Assembly (NCBI GenBank): GCA_006538405.1
Contig: BJKQ01000013.1
Coordinates: forward strand, 1,116,001 to 1,180,000
DNA length: 64,000 bases
Reading direction: 5' to 3'
Source of the DNA: Hansfordia pulvinata
Taxonomy: Eukaryota; Ascomycota; Sordariomycetes; Xylariales
The notes under the pieces were generated by a model that worked only from the letters and a program-made list of their open reading frames with translations, was not told the DNA's origin and ran no database searches. This document shows, in pieces, positions 12,420 to 46,571 of the stretch. Both the position numbers and the translations under genes were made by a program. Position 1 is the stretch's first letter. Each line of letters starts with the position of its first letter.

Positions 12420-12612
12420 GGGGGCGATCGACGCCGGGAAATTTGGAAATCCTGAGAGCTGCCATTGACCAGGTTCGCTTCATCACATCTTCCAGTGCCG
12501 ACTCCTCGGTAACCCTTGCCGACAACTTACCTAACACTTCTTTTACCCACTCTCAGCTTCAGCCTGGACACGAGAGAGAGACGCAGACTATATCGACAGA
12601 GCCCCAGTCATC

Positions 12613-14133
12613 ATGTGGTCCCTACCGCACTCTCGGCGCGCCTGCGCGTTGTCGGCATGCCTCATTGCCGCCAGCTCCCTTGCTTCGGCAGGGCCTTGCG
12701 ATATCTACGCCGACGGCAACACGCCCTGCGTGGCGGCGCACAGCACTACCCGTGCTCTCTACAGCGGCTACAAGGGCTCTCTGTACCAGGTCAGGCGCGA
12801 CTCGGATGGGTCGACGCGTGATATTGCACCGCTGTCGGCTGGAGGTGTCGCCGACGCAGGCGCCCAGGACACATTCTGCGCGGGCACAACATGCCTCATC
12901 TCCACCATCTACGACCAGTCCGGCCGCAACAACCACCTGACGCAGGCGCCGGCCGGCGGCTTCAGCGGGCCCGACGTCAACGGCGCCGACAACCTGGCCA
13001 GCGCCATCGGCGCCCCTGTGACGCTCAACGGCAAGCGGGCGTACGGTGTCTTCTTCTCGCCCGGCACGGGCTACCGCAAGAACGGAGCCACCGGTACGGC
13101 GAAGGGCGACGAGCCCGAGGGCATGTATGCCGTCATGGATGGCACTCACTACAACGATAAGTGCTGCTTCGACTACGGCAACGCCGAGGAGAACAACCTC
13201 GACAACGGTAACGGCGCCATGGAGGCCGTGTACCTGGGTGCCAACAAGAACTACGGTTTCGGTGAGGGCGACGGGCCTTGGGTCATGGCTGACCTGGAGA
13301 ACAAGCTGGCCGCGGGCCTCAACGACGGCCTCAACTCGGACGTCAAGTCGGTTGCCCACCGCTTCACCACGGCGATCCTCAAGGGCCGCCCCAACCAGTG
13401 GGCGATTCGCGGCGGCAACGCCAACAACGGTGGCCTCCAGACCTACTACAACGGCGCTCGCCCGGCCATGGACGGCTACAACCCCATGAAGAAGGAGGGC
13501 TCCATTATCCTCGGCATCGGCGGCGACAACAGCTGGTGGGCGCAAGGCACCTTCTACGAGGGTGTCATGACCTCGGGCTTCCCGTCTGACGACGTCGAGG
13601 CTAAGGTCCAGGCCGACATTGTCGGCGCTGGCTACGCGCCCGGCCCGCTGACCAGCGGCGACAAGCTCGCGGTCGGCCGATCCATCTCTCTCAAGGTCAC
13701 CACACCGGGCTTCGACACGCGATACCTGGCTCACACCGGCTCCTCGGTTAACACCCAAGTCGTCTCGGCATCCAGCGACGCCGGTCTGAAGGGCCGCGCC
13801 AGCTGGACGGTGCGCGCTGGCCTGGGCAACTCGGAATGCGTTTCCTTTGAGTCAGTTAACCTCCCTGGCCAGTTCCTGCGGCACAAGGACTACGCGCTTG
13901 AGCTCGACGCTAGCGACGGCTCCAAGCTCTTCAACGAGGACGCCACCTTTTGCCCGACGGAGGGCCTCACGGGGAAGAACCGATCTCTGCGCGTCTGGAG
14001 CTACCCAACGCGCTACTTCCGCCACTACGACGCCACCCTGTACATTGCCTCGAACGGCGGTGTCCACCCCTTTGACAACAAGGAGTCGTTCCTGGCCGAC
14101 TCCACCTGGGAGATCCACGACGGCTTCGCGTAA
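12613..14133 (+). CDS. abfB: Secreted alpha-L-arabinofuranosidase B (GH54 with CBM42)
   Basis: Secreted exo-acting enzyme that removes alpha-L-arabinofuranosyl side groups from arabinoxylan and arabinan. It has 506 residues and no intron. A signal peptide (residues 1-26, ending ASA) precedes GPCDIYADGNTPCVAAHSTT, the standard mature N-terminus of GH54. The catalytic domain runs to about residue 340 and contains the adjacent Cys pair C184-C185 in KCCFDYGNAE. By a constant offset of 8 to the well-studied A. kawachii enzyme (from memory), E229 in MADLEN is the nucleophile and D305 in GGDNS the acid/base. A CBM42 beta-trefoil fills about 355-506, with repeated SxNxPGxFLRHxDY-like blocks and arabinose-binding HYD/HKD residues. 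Its length matches the family. It is probably regulated by carbon source. All expected catalytic features are present. Confidence 0.95.
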   Translation: MWSLPHSRRACALSACLIAASSLASAGPCDIYADGNTPCVAAHSTTRALYSGYKGSLYQVRRDSDGSTRDIAPLSAGGVADAGAQDTFCAGTTCLISTIYDQSGRNNHLTQAPAGGFSGPDVNGADNLASAIGAPVTLNGKRAYGVFFSPGTGYRKNGATGTAKGDEPEGMYAVMDGTHYNDKCCFDYGNAEENNLDNGNGAMEAVYLGANKNYGFGEGDGPWVMADLENKLAAGLNDGLNSDVKSVAHRFTTAILKGRPNQWAIRGGNANNGGLQTYYNGARPAMDGYNPMKKEGSIILGIGGDNSWWAQGTFYEGVMTSGFPSDDVEAKVQADIVGAGYAPGPLTSGDKLAVGRSISLKVTTPGFDTRYLAHTGSSVNTQVVSASSDAGLKGRASWTVRAGLGNSECVSFESVNLPGQFLRHKDYALELDASDGSKLFNEDATFCPTEGLTGKNRSLRVWSYPTRYFRHYDATLYIASNGGVHPFDNKESFLADSTWEIHDGFA

Positions 14134-31854: not shown

Positions 31855-32439
31855 CTACGGTCCGTCTGTAGCATTCTCCGCCTCGTCCTCTGGTAACTCG
31901 CGCAGCCGCGTGCGCACCCGTGATATGGCCTTGCCCAGGAGATTCTGGCCCCAATTGTCCCGGTGGTTGCCGGCAGCCGATGCACGGTAACCGATGCCCC
32001 AGATGCGGTCGAAAGGGCTGGCCTCGACGATCTCGCGATTGCCCGTCGCCAGCAACTGCCGCCTCACCTCGTCGCCGCTCGTGAACTTGCGCCAGCACCC
32101 CTCCTCGACCACTTGCTCCTTGTGCTGGTCCCAGAGCGCGGCGTCGAAGCCGACTACCTTGCGGCCCAGTGCTTTGCACTTTCTCGGGTTGCTGCCTTGC
32201 TTGAGCACCTGCCTGGCGGTCTGGTCATCGTTGAAGAGGACTGCTTTGGCGTACATCATGTACTGCTCAGTGCACGCGAATCTGTGACTATCGGTCTCGG
32301 GGCCGTTGCCCCGGAACCCTGCAAGTATGCTCTCGCGCGTGGGCAGCGGAGCTTCGAAGGGCAGGGGGTACCAATTGGAGCAAAAGTCGGCACTCGTGTA
32401 GAAGTAAAAGGGCTCGGGATCGCGCGAAACGCTTGCCAT
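31855..32439 (-). CDS. NADAR-family protein (YbiA/DUF1768, probable N-glycosidase)
   Basis: A 194-residue single-exon protein starting MASVSRDPEPFYFYTSADFC at 32439. It matches the NADAR/YbiA-like fold: an N-terminal FYF...FSNWYP-type block (here DFCSNWYPLPFE), the SHRFACTEQYMMYAKAVLFN segment, then GRKVVGFDAALWDQHK and a C-terminal IWGIGY ... NWGQNLLGKAI block. All are in the standard order and length. Family members in bacteria and plants hydrolyse N-glycosidic bonds of damaged riboflavin-pathway intermediates, and some remove ADP-ribose from guanine in DNA. The role of fungal copies is not known to me. Compared with the family consensus, the first block reads CSNWYP rather than FSNFYP. No neighbour suggests a pathway. 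Confidence 0.85.
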   Translation of the reverse strand: MASVSRDPEPFYFYTSADFCSNWYPLPFEAPLPTRESILAGFRGNGPETDSHRFACTEQYMMYAKAVLFNDDQTARQVLKQGSNPRKCKALGRKVVGFDAALWDQHKEQVVEEGCWRKFTSGDEVRRQLLATGNREIVEASPFDRIWGIGYRASAAGNHRDNWGQNLLGKAISRVRTRLRELPEDEAENATDGP

Positions 32440-34351
32440 GGCACCGGCGGTTGGCCTCTTGTTGTGTGGGTATGCGTGCTCGTATCGTGGGAACTGAATT
32501 GACAGGCTGAGGAACCCACTGGAAACCGTGGTCGCTCTGCAGAATCGTCTGGCTGGTTTGCTTGACCTGAAATTGTTGTAGCATACAATTCGTGCGTACC
32601 TACGGATAAATGTAGGGAGCCCAGGATAGGTTGGGTATTCATACACCTGATGACCCTAGCGTTCTTGTATTCGGAGGGCAAACAAGTCTTGACCGCCGAA
32701 GGGGAAAGTGGCATCCCGCGTGGCCGCGCTGAGTCACGCCGCAGCCGTCACGCCGCCACGCATCCGCATTTTAACGGCAGTTGCCCCTACGGTTGTTTTC
32801 TGAGCGTCTCTCTGTCTGTTGCTCGGCCGCTCGAGCAGTACACAGCGCGCTGCGATGCGGTTGGCAACAGTCGGGATGAAGGTGGCGAAGTATAGTAGGT
32901 ACCTTACAGCGTGGGCGAACGGGGATCGGATGCATGGGCTGATGCTGTACGAGCACCTCCAGTTGCTGGCAAGGCTGACGAGGCTGGTGAGGGATAGCCA
33001 CGTCTGCCCTTGATGGGCTTCAATGTGCAGCGAGACGGAGGTGGATGATTCACACCGGGGACGGATAGACTGTGCGTTAGGTACTCGTATATGAGGCAAG
33101 TACATGTATGTACCTGGTCCGAGTTGAAACCCAGCAAACACGCAGAGGTGAGGTGGTGGCGGGGGGCCGCCTGGGACGAGACTTGGAGGCTGGCACGGTC
33201 GGGTCTCCACCTCACATCCGTGGGCGCCAGGCGGGTTTCTCGTGTGCGCAAGCGACGGGAAGCTACCCCGCACCCGCACCAGCTGGTGGACGCTCCCATG
33301 ATGCTTTCTCCAACAACGATGCGCGGGCACGTGAGCTACCTCCCATGGATGTACAAGCGTCCGCCAGGTGGATTTCAAGTGTTTAGGTATTGCCTGAGGC
33401 CCGTTGTACGGCCTCCGAGTGTCCCGGCGCCCGGTGCCTGAGCTGATTGATGGGCAGGACGACCTCCCTTGACCTGCGAAACCTCCTCACCTTTCCACCG
33501 GGTGTACGAGCAGCCTTGTGACAAACGCACGATCCTACTATCGTGCTATGGTGAGATGTATTAGCTGCACATAGTGACGACGCTGACCTGACTGTCGAGA
33601 CGAAGCTGTCTGGACGAGGGGGCTCGACTGCAGTGGAGGCTGGCGAGCTTGGTCGAACCAATGGAATAGACTCGGCGCTGGTTGGCCGGCGCGGGCCAGG
33701 CTGGACTGGGCTCGCCCGCAAAGGCCAGAACGGACCAATGCGAGCCACGGATCGAATCCAATCCAACGGCGGGGATTCCCACCAGTCCAATCGATGGCAG
33801 TTGCACTCGGCTTTGCTCTGGCTGTTGACGCGACCGCTGACCGCCGACCGCCCCTGCCTGCCTGCCGTGCCTGCCTTGCCGTGCAGTACCTCACGAATAG
33901 GTACTCGTATTGGAAGGGCGTCAGTCCGGGCTGGGCGCTTGCCTTGTCCCTTCTCGTCAGGTCTTGTCTCGTCAGGTCTTGGCCCGTCTCCGGTCATTCC
34001 TGCCGCCGATTGTGTCATTCCCTCCCTTTGTCTCGCCACCTTCCCTCGACCTGACATGCTCCTGCGTCTTCTCGTCTTTTCTCCCTTTTCCAAGCTTCAG
34101 CTCCCAGCTCCCAGCTTTGCCTCTGCTCTCCACTGCCGCTCAGAGCTGCTCACGACATCGTTCCCGCCAGGCCCACCACACGTCACTTGCACGTGTCGAC
34201 GGCCCCCGCTCCCACCTCAGACCGCCAGCAGGCCCCCCACCAAGCTCTCTCGCCCGCCCTCTTTCGGCCTTCCCAGCGGAGCCCGTCGCTTTCGCCGCCC
34301 GCTGGCACGGCAGCATCTTCGTTCACAACCTCGCCCTCTTGAACAGCAACC
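32440..34351. promoter_or_regulatory. Divergent intergenic region, NADAR and ALO1 promoters
   Basis: No gene seen in 1.9 kb. TACTCGTA copies start at 33082 and 33902. The last 350 nt are pyrimidine-rich, as expected of a fungal leader. Confidence 0.5.
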
Positions 34352-38616: not shown

Positions 38617-41600
38617 CTACTCAGGGCCGACGGGGCCGCTGCCGCTGCGGTGCTCCGAGGCGCACTTCTGCTGGCACTGGAACTGGCCCTGGTCGACGCC
38701 GAGCCCGGCGCCCGAGTGCTGGAAGCGGCCCGAGCAGGCCTGCACGCACTCGTCGTACGAGGTCGACGCAAAGAAGTGGCGGCGCGCGATGCCCTTGAGC
38801 AGCGCCTTGACGGGCTCCGCCTTTCCGGGCTTCTTTTGCTCCTCCGCCTTCTTCTTGCCGTGCACCTTGCGGCACTGCTTCTCCCACGAGTCGGAAGACT
38901 GCTCCTCGCCCAGCGCCGCGTCGGCCTCTTGGTCCTCGGTCGCGTGCGATTTGACGCACTCAGCGTATGACTTGCCGTAGGGGTGGCGGGGGAAGACGTG
39001 GTGGACGCTCTCATGGCCAGCCGCGAAGCCCTTCTCCGAGGCGAACTGGCCCTGGTCGACACCCAGGCCGGCACCAGAGTGCTGGAACTGGCCGGCGTCG
39101 GCCTGAGAGCCGGCTTCAAAGTCGGACTCGGAGTGGCGCTTATGGAAGTGGTGCACACTCTCGTGGCCAGCCGCGAAGCCCTTCTCCGAGGCGAATTGGC
39201 CCTGGTCAACGCCAAGGCCGGCGCCGGAGTGCTGGAACTTGCCGGCCTCGGCCTCGGATCCAGCCTCGAAGCCGGATTCGAAGTGGCGCTTAGGGAAGTG
39301 GTGGATGCTCTCGTGGCCAGCGGCGAAACCCTTCTCGGAAGCAAATTGGCCCTGGTCAACACCGAGGCCCGCACCAGAGTGCTGGAATTTGCCGGCGTCA
39401 GCCTGGGTGCCGGCCTCGAAACCAGACTCGGAGTGACGCTTGTGGTGAACGCTCTCATGGCCGGCCGCGAAGCCCTTCTCCGAGGCGAACTGGCCCTGGT
39501 CAACACCCAGGCCAGCACCAGAGTGCTGGAACTTGCCGGCGTCAGCCTCGGATCCAGCCTCAAAGTCGGAGTGGGAGTGGGAGTGGCGCTTGGCAATCCC
39601 GCCCAGAAGGCCGCTGATAGGGTCGCTGGGGGCCTGGGCCTTGGGCTGAGAAGCCTCGGGCTTCGGCTCGGGGGCGGCGGCAGAGTGGTGAGGGATCTTG
39701 CCGAAGCCGCTCTCGTGGCCGGCAGCAAAGCCCTTCTCGCTGGCGAATTGGCCCTGGTCGACGCCGAGTCCGGCTCCGGAGTGCTGGAACTTGCCAGCGT
39801 CGGCCTGCTCGCCTTTGGCGAAACCCTCAGAGTGGAAACCGTGCTCGCCACGCTTAGCGATGCCACCTAGCAGACCACTGATGGGGTCGCTGGGCGCTTG
39901 GGCTTTGGGCTGCGAGGCCTCAGGCTTGGGCTCAGGGGCAGCGGCAGAGTGGTGAGGGATCTTGCCATAACCACTCTCGTGGCCGGCAGCGAATCCTTTC
40001 TCGCTGGCAAACTCGCCCGTGTCAACGCCCAGACCAGCTCCGGAGTGTTGGAACTTGCCAGCGTCGGCCTGCTCGCCCTTAGCGAAACCCTCGGAGTGGA
40101 AACCGTGCTTGCCACGCTTGGCAATACCGCCCAAGAGACCGCTGATGGGGTCGCTGGGGGCGGCCTTGGGCTGTTCCTGCTCTTGCGCCTGCTCTTGCTC
40201 CTGCTGGGGCTTGGGCTCGGGGGCAGCGCCGCCAAAGCCCTTGTGGGGGAGCGATCCGGAGGCGTGGCCGGCAGCGAAACCCTTCTCACTGGCGAACTCG
40301 CCCTGGTCAACACCGAGACCGGCGCCGGAGTGCTGGAACTGGCCCGCATCTTGCTCTTGGCCAGCGGCGAAACCCTCAGAACCAAAGCCGTGCTTGCCGC
40401 GCTTGGCGATGCCACCAAGAAGGCCGGAGATAGGGTCACTGGGGGCGGCCTTGGGCTGTTTCTGCTCTTGCTCCTGCTCTTGCTCCTGCTGGGGCTTGGG
40501 CTCGGGGGCACCGGCAGCGGGGAAGTGGTCGCCGCTGAACTCGGCGTGGGCGCATTGGCGGGCGCAGTGGTTCTTGCACTGGGTGACTCCTAGAGCAGCG
40601 TTGGCGTGCTGGCATTTGTACTCGCAGTCCTCGGCGCACTGGGCGCCGCCGGCCTTGACGTCGCGGCGGCCCTGTCCGTGCCAGCCGCCCTCGATCTCGT
40701 TCTCGGGACCGGCGTGGATGGAGCCCGAGGCGCACTGCTGCTGGCAGGCGAACTCGCCCTGGTCAACGCCGAGACCAGCCCCGGAGTGCTGGAACTTGCC
40801 GGCGCACTGGGACAGGCACTGGTCGTACCAGGCGTCGAAATGGTGACGGCGCTCGAGGCCGCCGGACAGCGCGGCGGGGCCTTGAGGCAAAGCCGAGCCG
40901 GTTCCGGGGCCGATGGCGCCGGTGCGACCGCTGCTCAGCTCATTGTCGCTGACGTGGCGGTGGTACTCGTCGTGGGCGCACTGGTCCTCGCAGACGTTGC
41001 GGCACTCGGTCTCGTCGCCCAACGCATCGGCACCCTCGCACTTGTGCTGGCAAGAGGCCATGCAGTCGGCCGAGATCTTGCCGCGGCGCTTGGCGAGCCC
41101 GCCGAGAAGACCACTGATGGGGTCAGCGGGGGCCTCGGGAGCAGCGGGTGCGGGGGTGGCAGTAGCGGAAGAGGCGGCGGCGGCGGAGGAAGAGGCGGCG
41201 GCAGCGGAAGAGGCGGCGGCCATGGCGGATACGGCCTTCTCTTCCTTCTGGTCCTTGGTAGACTTGACAGGCTCAGACTTGCCGTGCGACTTGGCGTGGA
41301 CGGCCGGCTTGCGCGAGCCCTTCATGTAATCCTTGATGTCCGAAGCAGAGGGGCCCTGGAGAACCTGGCCGTCACCTTCAGCGTCGCCGATTCTCTTCAT
41401 CAAACCGCCGAGCAGACCCGTGATGGGGTCGGCCGGGGCGGCCTCGGGGGTGGCGGAGGACTTGAGCGCAGCAGCAGACGAGGCGGCATCCTGCTTTTCC
41501 TTGCAGGCCTTGACGCACTTCTCCATGCAGAGGACGAAGTGGGCAGACGCCTCCTCCTCCTCCTTGGTGCACTTGTCATGGCACGAACAGTCGTCGTACT

Positions 41601-41897
41601 TGACGGCCTTGGTCGGCTCGGGGCTGGCCTCGGCAGCGGGAGCGGCCTCCTTGCGGACCAGTCTCATGAGCATGTCCATGGGGCCCGGGGCAGCCGACGG
41701 AGCGGCAGGGGTCGGGGCGTCTTCAAACTCGGAGCCGAGGTCGGATAGGTCCATGTCGTCGGCCGACATGTCCCGCGGCCTGATTTCTTGTTAGTGGTGC
41801 TCTCACAGCCTCCCCTTCACTTCCGCCGCGCTACTTACATGATGGGCTTGGCCACCATGGCGGGGATCAGTCCCGCCAGGACGATCTTCTTCAGCAT
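38617..41897 (-). CDS. Secreted repeat protein with periodic Kex2-type KR sites and Cys modules
   Basis: I do not recognise a family. Two exons: 41897-41839 and 41779-38617, joined over a 59-nt intron (GTAAGT donor, ACTAAC branch, CAG acceptor), give 1073 residues. Exon 1 adds the signal peptide MLKKIVLAGLIPAMVAKPI. Six segments ending DPISGLLGG(I/L)AKR (one with ITGLLGGLMKR) end at residues about 149, 251, 480, 575, 663 and 751. Further KR sites follow at about 801, 851 and 901, exactly 50 apart. Nine cores read FQHSGAGLGVD(Q/T)G(E/Q)F. Six-Cys modules (C-x3-C-x3-C-x11-C-x3-C-x3-C) lie at about 259-287 and 401-429. Four-Cys versions holding the FQHSGAGLGVD core lie at about 341-369 and 1031-1059. 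A further Cys group lies at 84-112. The central copies have no Cys. Pro/Gln/Glu-rich linkers separate units. Likely secreted and cut by Kex2 into many similar peptides; the role is unknown. Confidence 0.85.
38986..40398 (-). repeat. Coding tandem repeats: 285-, 264- and 150-bp units
   Basis: Inside the secreted repeat protein. From the 5' side of the gene there is one 285-bp unit (40398-40114), two 264-bp units (40113-39586) and four 150-bp units (39585-38986). Each begins after a KR codon pair (the last ends in PR). Units share the same reading frame, and the 150-bp unit is the 264-bp unit without the Pro-rich linker and the DPISGLLGG block. Confidence 0.85.
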
Positions 41898-43033: not shown

Positions 43034-43858
43034 TCATTTCACTGCGACGAGATGCCAGACGCCCGACTCGAATCCGCCCAGCTCTGGGACAAAGCGCTTT
43101 TCCAATTCCTGATACAGCTGCTGCTTCTCGGCGTCGGACCAATTGGCCGCAGCCTTGAGTACGATGGCATCGAAGTGGTGCTTGTTAGCATTCTCGTCGG
43201 CGTCTTTGGAGATGATTATGGTCTCAGTGGTCTTATGCAGCTGAATCTTGTCCGCCGCGAAGCCAGCATCGGTAAAGAGTCCCTGGAACCAGTCAGCCGT
43301 CAGCCAGTGCGGCGGCGTGGGGCCCGTGTAGGTGGGCGCGTCGGGGCGGACGGCGCGAATGGCAGCATCTGCTATGGGTGCATAGCCGCAGGTTCTCCAG
43401 ACGGTGGCCAGAGCGACGCCGCCAGGCTGCAGAGTGCGGTATATCTCCTTGGCGATCTTTCCGGGGCCAGTGCAGGCCATGAGGACGAGACTGCAGAAGG
43501 AGTGGGTGAAGGTGGCGTCTGGGAAGGCGAGAGATTCCGAGTCCATCTCGGCAGGGGTCAGGCGGGCCGAGTCGAACTCGGGGCGCTTCCGGCACTCGCG
43601 AATCATGGCCGGGGAAATGTCAGTGGCGTGGATTGTCGGCATTTCGTGGGCGGGGAGCTGCCTGGCAATGGTGACGGATACGGCGCCGTTGCCACAGGCG
43701 TTATCGTGAACCAGCGCGGCGGGGCCGAGCGGGTGGGGGTTGAACTGGAGCATCTGCTTGGCCAGGTTGTACCATAGAGGACCGAAGCTGTCGTATATGG
43801 GGGCCATGTCGTCGAAATAGGCGCGGAGATGCCGCTTGAGCTGTGATGCGTCAGCCAT
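43034..43858 (-). CDS. Class I SAM-dependent methyltransferase, UbiE-like
   Basis: A 274-residue single-exon protein starting MADASQLKRHLRAYFDDMAP at 43858. An N-terminal helix (YFDDMAPIYDSF) precedes the Rossmann fold. Motif I is VHDNACGNGAVSVTIA (about residues 47-62), motif II the acidic ATDISPAMI (about 75-83), a further motif is PDATFTHSFCSLVLM, and motif III is RTLQPGGVALATVW. The C-terminal half (HWLTADWFQGLFTDAGF) matches Methyltransf_11/25-type small-molecule methyltransferases. The substrate cannot be told; there is no signal peptide, so it is probably cytosolic. It lies next to the secreted repeat protein on the same strand, 1.1 kb upstream of it, but nothing in the sequence proves a link. 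Confidence 0.85.
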   Translation of the reverse strand: MADASQLKRHLRAYFDDMAPIYDSFGPLWYNLAKQMLQFNPHPLGPAALVHDNACGNGAVSVTIARQLPAHEMPTIHATDISPAMIRECRKRPEFDSARLTPAEMDSESLAFPDATFTHSFCSLVLMACTGPGKIAKEIYRTLQPGGVALATVWRTCGYAPIADAAIRAVRPDAPTYTGPTPPHWLTADWFQGLFTDAGFAADKIQLHKTTETIIISKDADENANKHHFDAIVLKAAANWSDAEKQQLYQELEKRFVPELGGFESGVWHLVAVK

Positions 43859-46571
43859 GGCGGAGGCGGGGTGGGTGGGTTGGCGGGCTGCTCGAGTGTG
43901 GGAAGGCGAGCTGCTCAAGGGTGGGATGGCGACGTCGGCTGGTCAGACGAAGACAAGAGAGAAGAAGTCTACAGGATCACGGGCAGTGCAATGGCTTGGT
44001 CGCAACTTCGAGTATTTGTATTTATCCGCACGCACACGAGCTCCCGGGTACCATGATGGCAGCAGCGGTCGTGGCCACAGTTGCAGGGTGGTGGGCAAGG
44101 CGAGGGTGGTGATGGTCCAATTCGGGACGCCGATGGTCTGGCAACAGGTACCGGCGCCGGTGACTCAGTCGGCGCGCTGCGGCAGTGCAAGCTTCCAATG
44201 GCTGGTGGGACCAGATGTGCAGCGTTCAAATGTGCGGGTTGCTGACTGGACCAGCTCGGATGCGCGTAAGAAACATGAATAAATTATTTGATTAACATGC
44301 ATATATGCAGCTTACGAGTTATGTATCAAAACACGCTTATGTTCAAATTGCACAACGTCGTCGGGCACAACTCGGGAGACTTGCCGCGCTCGATTGATGA
44401 CTGGGATTAATGACCTGCATGCGAACGTACATAGGTAGGCACCGCGGTCCGGGTCGCGGTCTACCTTACATGTAATAAGCACCTAATTATGATGCGATGG
44501 GAAGTACAGCGCGAACGTTATCTCCCGGACCGTGTAGTAGGCCATCTTGGTAGGTATCTCTAGAGCACCATCATGAGCAGTATATCGACTTGATTCTACG
44601 GGCTTCACATGCCGCCACTCAAGATCTAGAGAGAGTTGACCGGATCAGGCAAGGCTCGAGGGAGGCCGATTCAAGGTCGGCTCGCCCAGTCTTTCTTCCG
44701 TGGAGACCTCTAGTCCCTTGTTCCCTGGCACTACGAGTACTTGGCCATCAGAAAGGGTATCCGGGACCTTCAGTCAGTCCTGCATACGATCGACACCAGG
44801 TCCTGCTGATATGCACAACAGACAGACCCCTATGGAGACGGCCTGCGCACGCCGAACCTGGCGCTGTGCAAGCAGCAACGAGGATCCATATGAGGTAGAC
44901 CAACGAGGACCACTGCGGCGGGCGCGTGCGTCTGCTGTATCTGCGCACGTGCAGGCGCTTGACAACCAACTGGATCACCGGACAATATCAAGCCAGCCTC
45001 TATCCCTCGTATGCTAGGGTTTCGGTCGGGAAGCATCGAAACGACCGGAGCACTCGGACAGAGCCTGCGATAGGGTGTCGAACACCGGCCAGACCAGTAG
45101 GTTTGGACGAGGCTGGACGGCTGCGGAGTTGTTTTTCGTTTTCGATGAGGATACAGGGGTACAGGGGCTTGCTTGTGTTCATGGAATGGAATGCTCCAGG
45201 CACCCGAGGGACAGAGACGAGAGGGAGGGAGGGGATGACGGCGACTGGGCAGGCACACACCGAGCAAGCGGAAGAAGGGGCTGAATAAGACGAGGCTTGG
45301 GAAGGATGGACAGCGCAGGGTTTTGCTTCTGTGTCTGTCTCCCAGCCTTGCGAGTGTCAGGCCTGACCGGTGCTCTATTCTTGTACAGAGCCTTCCAGGG
45401 TGTGCTCGTACGGCGCACGACCTGGTGCCTTTTTCCTTGTACGAGTATGGCCCGGCACGTCGGGACGGACTGGGCTGGCTGGGTCGAACGCTGCCTCCCT
45501 CATCAGTGGATGTTTGTTCTCGTTAACATGGATGACACTGGACCCAGAGATGCGGTAATGCCAAGGCTACCTAGACCTGGCCAGACTTGGCCTATCCGGG
45601 CTAGCCGACACCAGTATCGCGGCCTGTCCCCTCGGAGGCGTTCACAGGCGTGACAGGTAGCGCGACCAGCGGGCAGCAGTGGGAGGATCCTCCAGGGGCA
45701 CCCGTGGACACCAGGGGCTCGGGCCGCTCACTGGTCCCCGCGCCTGATTGCTGGTGGTGGAGCCCTGCGGAGGGCTACTGGATCTACCGACAGCCTGAGC
45801 TGCAGCTACACCTGCAGTGCTTTTAGGTAGGTACTCGTACCTGAGATACTCGTACACCTCGTACCTGCACGGTCGGCAGTGACATTAGACAGCCCGCAGA
45901 CGACTGCCACCACCATCACCGACCGATAGCCCATCTGCACACAGGTCCTTCCTGCTCTCAGGCCTCAAGATGCTCGAGGATGGAAGACAATCTGAACTCA
46001 TCACCGCCAGCCGAGGAGCGTTCTGCTGGCTATTCTACCGAAATGATTCGAATCCAACACGCCGTTTCACTTCCCCGAGTGCGGGCCGTCCCCCTGTCCG
46101 CCAGCAGGCCAAGCGCGGTGGCTGGGCTGGCTAGGGCCAAACCGCGCCGCCCAACCTCCCGCCAGCACCACCACGAGCAAGCACATGGAACACCGCCCAC
46201 AACACCAGCGTGGAGGCATCGGCTCCCGCTGCCCGTCGCCGCCCTTCCCGCGCGGACATACCCGCCTCCATCACCAGCCCCTCCATCAGCCCCCTCCACC
46301 CGATAGCTTCTGCCCGTATTTCTTCCATGCGGGCCCTCGTCATGCATTCCAATCACTTGCCTCTGGCTCTCTTGTTGTTCTTCCGGCTCTCCCATTGGCC
46401 CGCCTGTCTGCAATGCAACACCTCGCCCATGACTGACGATTCTTTGTCTCTGACTAACGACGACCGACCGGCAGCCACAGCGACGACAGCGACGACGACC
46501 ACGACGACCACGACTAGATCGACAGCCAACACCACCATAGGACTACTCCTCTCTGCAAGGGGCTTCAGACA
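43859..46571. promoter_or_regulatory. Divergent intergenic region, methyltransferase and DUF3433 gene
   Basis: No convincing gene in 2.7 kb. It has an AT-rich patch at about 44270-44340, repeated TAGGTA words near 44430-44560 and four TACTCGTA-type copies at 44732-45854. The last 150 nt have ACGACR-rich simple sequence. Confidence 0.5.
44732..45854. repeat. Cluster of four TACTCGTA/TACGAGTA 8-mers
   Basis: Exact copies start at 44732, 45440, 45832 and 45847; the last two are 15 nt apart in the same orientation. Confidence 0.8.

Follow-up and report, generated by a model that had tools for sequence, protein, structure and literature searches.

What does a fungus gain from a long, probably secreted protein that is built of repeats and divided by pairs of basic residues? 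The question is raised by a gene of Hansfordia pulvinata (Ascomycota; Xylariales) on contig BJKQ01000013.1 of assembly GCA_006538405.1, within a stretch of 64,000 nucleotides (the window, in which positions are counted here). Frame and splice enumeration place the gene on the minus strand at 41897-38617, with two exons and a product of 1073 residues; coordinates and strand had been given correctly in a preliminary description of this DNA, which read the product as a multi-peptide precursor cut by Kex2. That reading is supported by a signal-like start, an excess of Lys-Arg (KR) and Arg-Arg (RR) pairs, repeat divergence dominated by silent changes and the presence of a kexin-like gene elsewhere in this genome, but it is not proven. 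We consider it rather probable that the gene encodes a secreted precursor of the Kex2-processed repeat protein (KEP) type, releasing about a dozen kindred peptides: some would resemble alpha-hairpinins, the disulfide-braced hairpins of plant defence, and the others would be cysteine (Cys)-less and rich in His and Gly. The Cys modules on which this proposal depends, and their kinship to the repeats, are absent from the preliminary description.

Dibasic sites and Cys-less repeats

KR steps lie at residues 148, 250, 479, 574, 662, 750, 800, 850 and 900. RR steps occur at 251, 330, 391 and 1019. Taking the KRR at 250-252 as two steps, the total is 13; when the sequence after residue 20 was shuffled 20,000 times, the average was 2.7 and the highest count 10. 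Only 9 of the 28 arginines have no adjacent Lys or Arg, and His directly follows 6 of the 13 steps. The intervals of 95, 88, 88, 50, 50 and 50 residues between KR pairs that had been reported are exact, but the earlier list lacked KR148, KR250/RR251, RR330, RR391 and RR1019, and the last repeat closes with VFPR before a His instead of with KR. The 13 module cores (377 of 1053 residues) are free of all 13 steps, an avoidance that is weak evidence alone because the cores are poor in Arg anyway. Six cuts are preceded by a conserved 13-residue DPISGLLGGIAKR-type element, DPI(S/T)GLLGG(I/L)(A/M)KR, previously overlooked, whose codons differ among copies while its residues are nearly constant; a seventh cut follows the similar LLKGIARR. 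This element probably presents the site to the protease.

The seven Cys-less repeats (U1-U7, Table 1) were compared over 41 codons with all 21 pairs pooled, giving proportions of silent and replacement differences of pS 0.58 and pN 0.12. Among U4-U7, dN is 0.02-0.05 and dS 0.4-1.1 (figures obtained without a codon-bias model), and U2 and U3, 88 residues each, differ by 33 silent and 4 replacement codon differences. Divergence is thus dominated by silent sites, and the peptide sequence is therefore conserved. Because duplication or gene conversion, if recent, would have left the silent sites alike too, the simplest reading is that the Cys-less peptide sequence is under selection. After trimming, each of these repeats would be acidic, with a net charge of -3 to -7, and would hold 4-7 His, so that a role in metal binding or at a surface fits better than membrane attack; the plain repeats U4-U6 contain no Tyr. 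The near-identical peptides of 48 residues that had been predicted correspond to three fragments, U4-U6, for which the calculated monoisotopic masses are 4941.19, 4922.25 and 5009.26. U7 would need a cut at Pro-Arg, and the fragments carrying U1-U3 would be 38-45 residues longer, at 86-93 residues.

At the N-terminus lie residues 5-16, directly after MLKK, and no other stretch of 12 residues in the protein is as hydrophobic (mean Kyte-Doolittle value 2.5; best window beyond residue 25, 1.36); this fits the signal peptide that had been predicted from exon 1. Exon 1 would be joined to exon 2 by a predicted intron of 59 nucleotides with a branch-like CACTAAC motif. A search for in-frame introns of 45-130 nucleotides returned two candidates, and this intron, the one proposed earlier, is the better, having the stronger donor and keeping the hydrophobic stretch whole. 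The alternative splice, GTGGCC...TCCGAG (128 nucleotides), was rejected for its weaker donor and for deleting 23 residues, including the final two of the hydrophobic stretch. A candidate for the processing enzyme is a kexin-like gene with several exons at C4:2441500-2445000 of the same genome. Its P-domain was recognised by PF01483, and by eye its translation has motifs of the kind known in subtilisins, a membrane segment and an acidic tail.

Cys modules resembling alpha-hairpinins

All 28 Cys of the protein lie inside six modules (M1-M6). Those of M2 are in register at residues 259, 263, 267, 279, 283 and 287, with its loop ALG shifted by one residue. M3 and M6 have the pattern CX3C-X19-CX3C, with F and G where M4 has its third and fourth Cys. 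The repeats U1-U7 align without gaps in the core with M3 and M6, share with them the loop QHSGAGLGVD(Q/T)G, and carry G, D/E, F, G, S and F at the six Cys positions; they are in register with five of the six Cys modules, all but M1. Judged by this alignment, the Cys-less repeats are members of a larger module family that includes the Cys modules. The Cys pattern is palindromic in all five in-register Cys modules, the lost Cys being mirror-image pairs. A partial module would be palindromic by chance in 3 of 15 ways, which for three partial modules gives about 0.01-0.04. Nested pairing (C1-C6, C2-C5, C3-C4) would directly explain mirror-image loss, and the palindromic patterns are suggestive of nested disulfides in the Cys modules.

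The published alpha-hairpinin motifs are CX3CX4-20CX3C for the four-Cys (4C) form and CX3CX3CX4-20CX3CX3C for the six-Cys (6C) form (Table 1 of PMC11591084). In the precursor the 6C motif occurs at residues 259 and 401 and the 4C motif at 341 and 1031, and M1 holds a 4C core at residue 86; neither M5 nor the seven Cys-less units contain the motif. No shuffled sequence among 20,000 had even one 6C motif. The published criteria rule out CC pairs and allow at most two stray Cys beyond the motifs (PMC11591084). The protein has no CC pair; of its 28 Cys, 20 lie in M2, M3, M4 and M6 and 4 in the 4C core of M1, making 24. The remaining four, two extra in M1 and the outer pair of M5, are stray or part of a motif depending on how the rule is read. 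Among predicted plant 6C peptides a spacing of X10 between the middle Cys is commonest, and X11, as in M2 and M4, is found in 64 (PMC11591084). The disulfides of EcAMP1 are described as nested (Cys7-Cys29, Cys11-Cys25).

An AlphaFold model of the 6C module M4 is a helix-loop-helix of moderate confidence. Compared with the PDB by Foldseek, its top two matches, both non-significant, are nigellin-1.1 (E 3.4) and VBP-8 (E 5.0), which we take to be plant alpha-hairpinins. No sequence homology to alpha-hairpinins was detected in a PDB sequence search of exon 2 or in Pfam. We therefore call the Cys modules alpha-hairpinin-like and do not claim membership; convergence on a simple scaffold is quite possible. 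In the literature examined, PMC11591084 included, alpha-hairpinins are plant peptides. The activities that mark the class are antimicrobial, protease-inhibiting or ribosome-inactivating. Among the matches listed by our literature searches, the hairpinin papers were on plants, judging by their titles. No paper joining hairpinin and kex2 was found in the open-access literature searched; in broader searches the word hairpinin did not occur among the matches listed, and the term fungal effector was in no match of a narrower one.

We propose that the chain would enter the endoplasmic reticulum through the predicted signal peptide and that its Cys modules would fold as small helical hairpins held by nested disulfides, three at most (C1-C6, C2-C5, C3-C4). 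A kexin may then act at a late stage of secretion, cutting after the KR and RR pairs between module cores, with the basic residues removed afterwards by Kex1-type trimming. Trimming by Kex1 and cutting by Kex2 at Pro-Arg are both known activities. The Cys-bearing products, with four or six Cys, would be five fragments (M1, M2, M3, M4 and M6), and the Cys-free products the seven units U1-U7. Of these, U4-U6 would emerge as plain 48-mers, and release of U7 would depend on the Pro-Arg cut. A mixed set of peptides would thus be secreted, its likeliest role being extracellular, as defence-type or interaction peptides directed at competitors or a host. By structural resemblance the Cys modules could be defence-type or inhibitory peptides, and the Cys-less copies could have taken on a different function, for instance binding metals or coating a surface.

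Table 1. Features of the precursor gene, with positions in the window
Feature	Position	Strand	Residues	Description	Basis
Exon 1	41839..41897	minus		start codon and signal-peptide-like sequence MLKKIVLAGLIPAMVA	splice enumeration, hydrophobicity
Predicted intron	41780..41838	minus		59 nt, GTAAGT...AATCAG, CACTAAC ahead of acceptor	sequence
Exon 2	38617..41779	minus		remainder of the 1073-residue protein and stop	reading frame
M1	41503..41589	minus	84-112	divergent six-Cys module, CXCX3C-X13-CX3CX3C, out of register with the others	
Spacer element	41392..41430	minus	137-149	DPITGLLGGLMKR, with Kex2-type site	
Spacer element	41086..41124	minus	239-251	DPISGLLGGLAKR	
M2	40978..41064	minus	259-287	6C hairpin core, CX3CX3C-X11-CX3CX3C	
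M3	40732..40818	minus	341-369	4C hairpin core, F and G in place of the inner Cys pair, loop HSGAGLGVDQG	
M4	40552..40638	minus	401-429	6C hairpin core, CX3CX3C-X11-CX3CX3C, modelled helix-loop-helix	AlphaFold
U1	40114..40398	minus	481-575	Cys-less repeat and long tail, 95 residues	
U2	39850..40113	minus	576-663	Cys-less repeat and tail, 88 residues	
U3	39586..39849	minus	664-751	Cys-less repeat and tail, 88 residues	
U4	39436..39585	minus	752-801	Cys-less repeat, 50 residues	
U5	39286..39435	minus	802-851	Cys-less repeat, 50 residues	
U6	39136..39285	minus	852-901	Cys-less repeat, 50 residues	
U7	38986..39135	minus	902-951	Cys-less repeat, VFPR end in place of KR	
M5	38872..38958	minus	961-989	degenerate, outermost Cys pair only	
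M6	38662..38748	minus	1031-1059	4C hairpin core, in the C-terminal fragment after LLKGIARR	

Relatives, rival readings and genomic setting

Relatives of the precursor were sought in its own genome (46.8 Mb, 63 contigs) and in a set of 5.8 billion proteins, of which the fungal share is not established. In the protein set no homologue was found among 7994 scored candidates for the whole of exon 2 (E up to 0.001), among 7992 for the repeat region or among 787 for the Cys region (E up to 1 for both). In the genome exon 2 matches only itself, with no second copy of the gene found, and 9 of the 10 matches of the Cys region lie inside the precursor gene. The outside match, at C5:607911 (E 0.117), was dropped as a paralogue: the frame in which it lies, of 417 codons, has three Cys but lacks any CX3C. 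Exon 2 has nothing above the cut-off in Pfam (DUF2810 at E 0.011 only), no match in NCBIfam and none among PDB sequences at E up to 10.

Several points weigh against a precursor of hairpinin-like peptides. With no homologue and no second copy found, there is no sign of conservation between species. Signal cleavage after Ala16 would place a Met at -3, which is unusual. The module cores hold only 3 of the 28 Arg, and 13 Arg drawn at random from the 28 would all fall outside the cores with a chance of 0.14. dS is near saturation (infinite for U2/U7) and the 21 repeat pairs are not independent. The Foldseek values of 3.4 and 5.0 are non-significant, and the alignment behind the model consists of repeats of one protein. 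Matches below the Pfam cut-off point elsewhere, to TIL (E 0.22-0.24), zf-Tim10_DDP (M3, E 0.057) and Per1 (E 5.4). The palindrome rests on three partial modules, of which M3 and M6 share ancestry, and M1 is off register. Finally, the AlphaFold model of a Cys-less unit is of low confidence (mean predicted local distance difference test score 53.4), so this unit may not fold.

A credible rival, although on balance we lean away from it, keeps the KEP precursor but takes the Cys modules for an independent fungal helical hairpin that converged on alpha-hairpinin spacing, its products coating or structuring the hyphal surface. Twin CX3C helical hairpins have arisen more than once, as in the small Tim proteins, to whose family M3 is weakly matched, and the acidity of the Cys-less repeats is unlike that of many membrane-active peptides. 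The Kex2-cut precursor Rep1 of Ustilago maydis offers a model, yielding peptides of about 37 residues that control hyphal wall properties (PMC6339444). This convergence is harder to reconcile with nigellin-1.1 and VBP-8 as the top structural matches, non-significant as their E values are, and with a modular layout that is that of plant hairpinin precursors. That the protein instead stays intact in the medium or the wall, with KR and RR incidental or used only to remove a pro-region, we consider unlikely: the excess of these pairs over shuffled sequences and the KR kept in six spacer-element copies despite silent changes around it speak against an intact protein, even though three repeat fragments would remain at 86-93 residues, the U7 boundary is PR, and core avoidance is non-significant given the placement of Arg.

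A precursor of the dikaritin type, a ribosomally synthesised and post-translationally modified peptide (RiPP) with cores cyclised by UstYa-family enzymes, would share with ustiloxin the layout of a signal peptide and repeats between Kex2 sites (PMC7329392). We regard it as very improbable, since the nearest UstYa match found (PF11807) is 568 kb away on the same contig; the preliminary description had argued against a ustiloxin-type product from the lack of UstYa nearby, and both the observation and the argument hold. The units are moreover of 48 residues compared with 8-14 in known cases (PMC7329392), and U4-U6 offer no Tyr. The genome search returned seven partial UstYa matches at three places, counts that are lower bounds. 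These places, C1:2886849-2887741, C2:3057000-3057766 and C13:586168-586690, all outside the window, are candidate dikaritin-type RiPP loci.

Building on the preferred reading of a KEP-type precursor with hairpinin-like products, we tentatively advance a broader idea: that fungi make their own alpha-hairpinin-like peptides in a Kex2-cut modular precursor mirroring the cassettes of plants, and that its modules record a stepwise loss of disulfides, pair by pair (6C, 4C, 2C, none), whose end point is a peptide free of Cys, under strong purifying selection and with a function of its own. If this is true, the peptide scaffold reaches beyond plants into a further kingdom, whether through common descent or convergence, and nature offers versions of a single scaffold with three, two, one and zero disulfides, in which the purpose of disulfides would be directly testable. 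What is new here is the recognition that the repeats of this fungal precursor are kin, without disulfides, to the alpha-hairpinin-like modules beside them.

The S-adenosylmethionine methyltransferase that had been noted 1.1 kb away is of the Methyltransf_25/11 type (43034-43918, minus strand); it lies 1137 bases upstream of the precursor start codon on the same strand, and nothing was found that links it to the peptides. A Pfam scan of 22 other stretches of the window gave a family at E <= 0.001 for 11 and none for the other 11. The families are SAICAR synthetase, methyltransferase, arabinofuranosidase, ferric reductase, RNase PH, Rad21/Rec8, GDI, D-arabinono-lactone oxidase, DUF3433, PHD finger and NADAR, and no peptide-biosynthesis cluster was recognised in these stretches, where short or split genes could escape. 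The NADAR-domain protein (E 8e-51) is at 31858-32655 on the minus strand, and a single open frame at 12535-14130 on the plus strand holds complete alpha-L-arabinofuranosidase B catalytic and AbfB domains. Two plus-strand open frames, at 40606-41748 (380 residues) and 38983-39870 (295 residues), run antisense to the precursor gene, probably as a by-product of composition.

Comparison with known systems

Like known KEPs, the precursor has a signal-peptide-like start and several similar segments between KR or RR pairs. The rule of Le Marquer (2019) calls for four or more fragments at KR/RR, of which three or more must be similar, with repeats amounting to at least 15% of the protein. Beside the 13 steps we count, by eye, six complete repeat fragments plus the U7 fragment; the seven 50-residue units make up about 33% of the protein, and the three plain 50-mers alone 14%, just below the threshold. 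Umemura (2020) requires at least three tandem repeats of at least 8 residues between dibasic sites, none longer than 100. The three 50-mers and the fragments of 88, 88 and 95 residues comply, but the limit is exceeded by fragments 21-149 and 150-251 and, if Pro-Arg 951 stays uncut, also by the U7 fragment (902-1020) with its 119 residues. Products of 25-50 residues are a counted size class among KEPs, of which 1114 of 1193 yield one motif type and 79 two or three. The precursor differs from KEPs in uniting Cys-hairpin modules with their Cys-less kin and in the 13-residue element before six cuts. Rep1, a single secreted precursor from which Kex2 cutting releases repeated peptides, has the layout proposed here.

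Small Tim proteins are mitochondrial single-domain chaperones, twin CX3C helical hairpins with nested disulfides. The modules share the twin CX3C, and the zf-Tim10_DDP match of M3 is sub-threshold; because of the signal-peptide-like start and multi-module layout, and with the dibasic sites in view, this reading was set aside.

Close parallels are also offered by the plant hairpinin precursors. M2 and M4 fit the published 6C motif and M3 and M6 the 4C motif, and the layout of the modular precursors Sm-AMP-X and Tk-AMP-X resembles that proposed here. The plant precursors also include EcAMP and, of the vicilin type, MiAMP2 and PV100; no vicilin-type Pfam match was found in the precursor. It differs from all of these in being fungal, in its Kex2-type dibasic sites, and in that 7 of its 13 modules are free of Cys.

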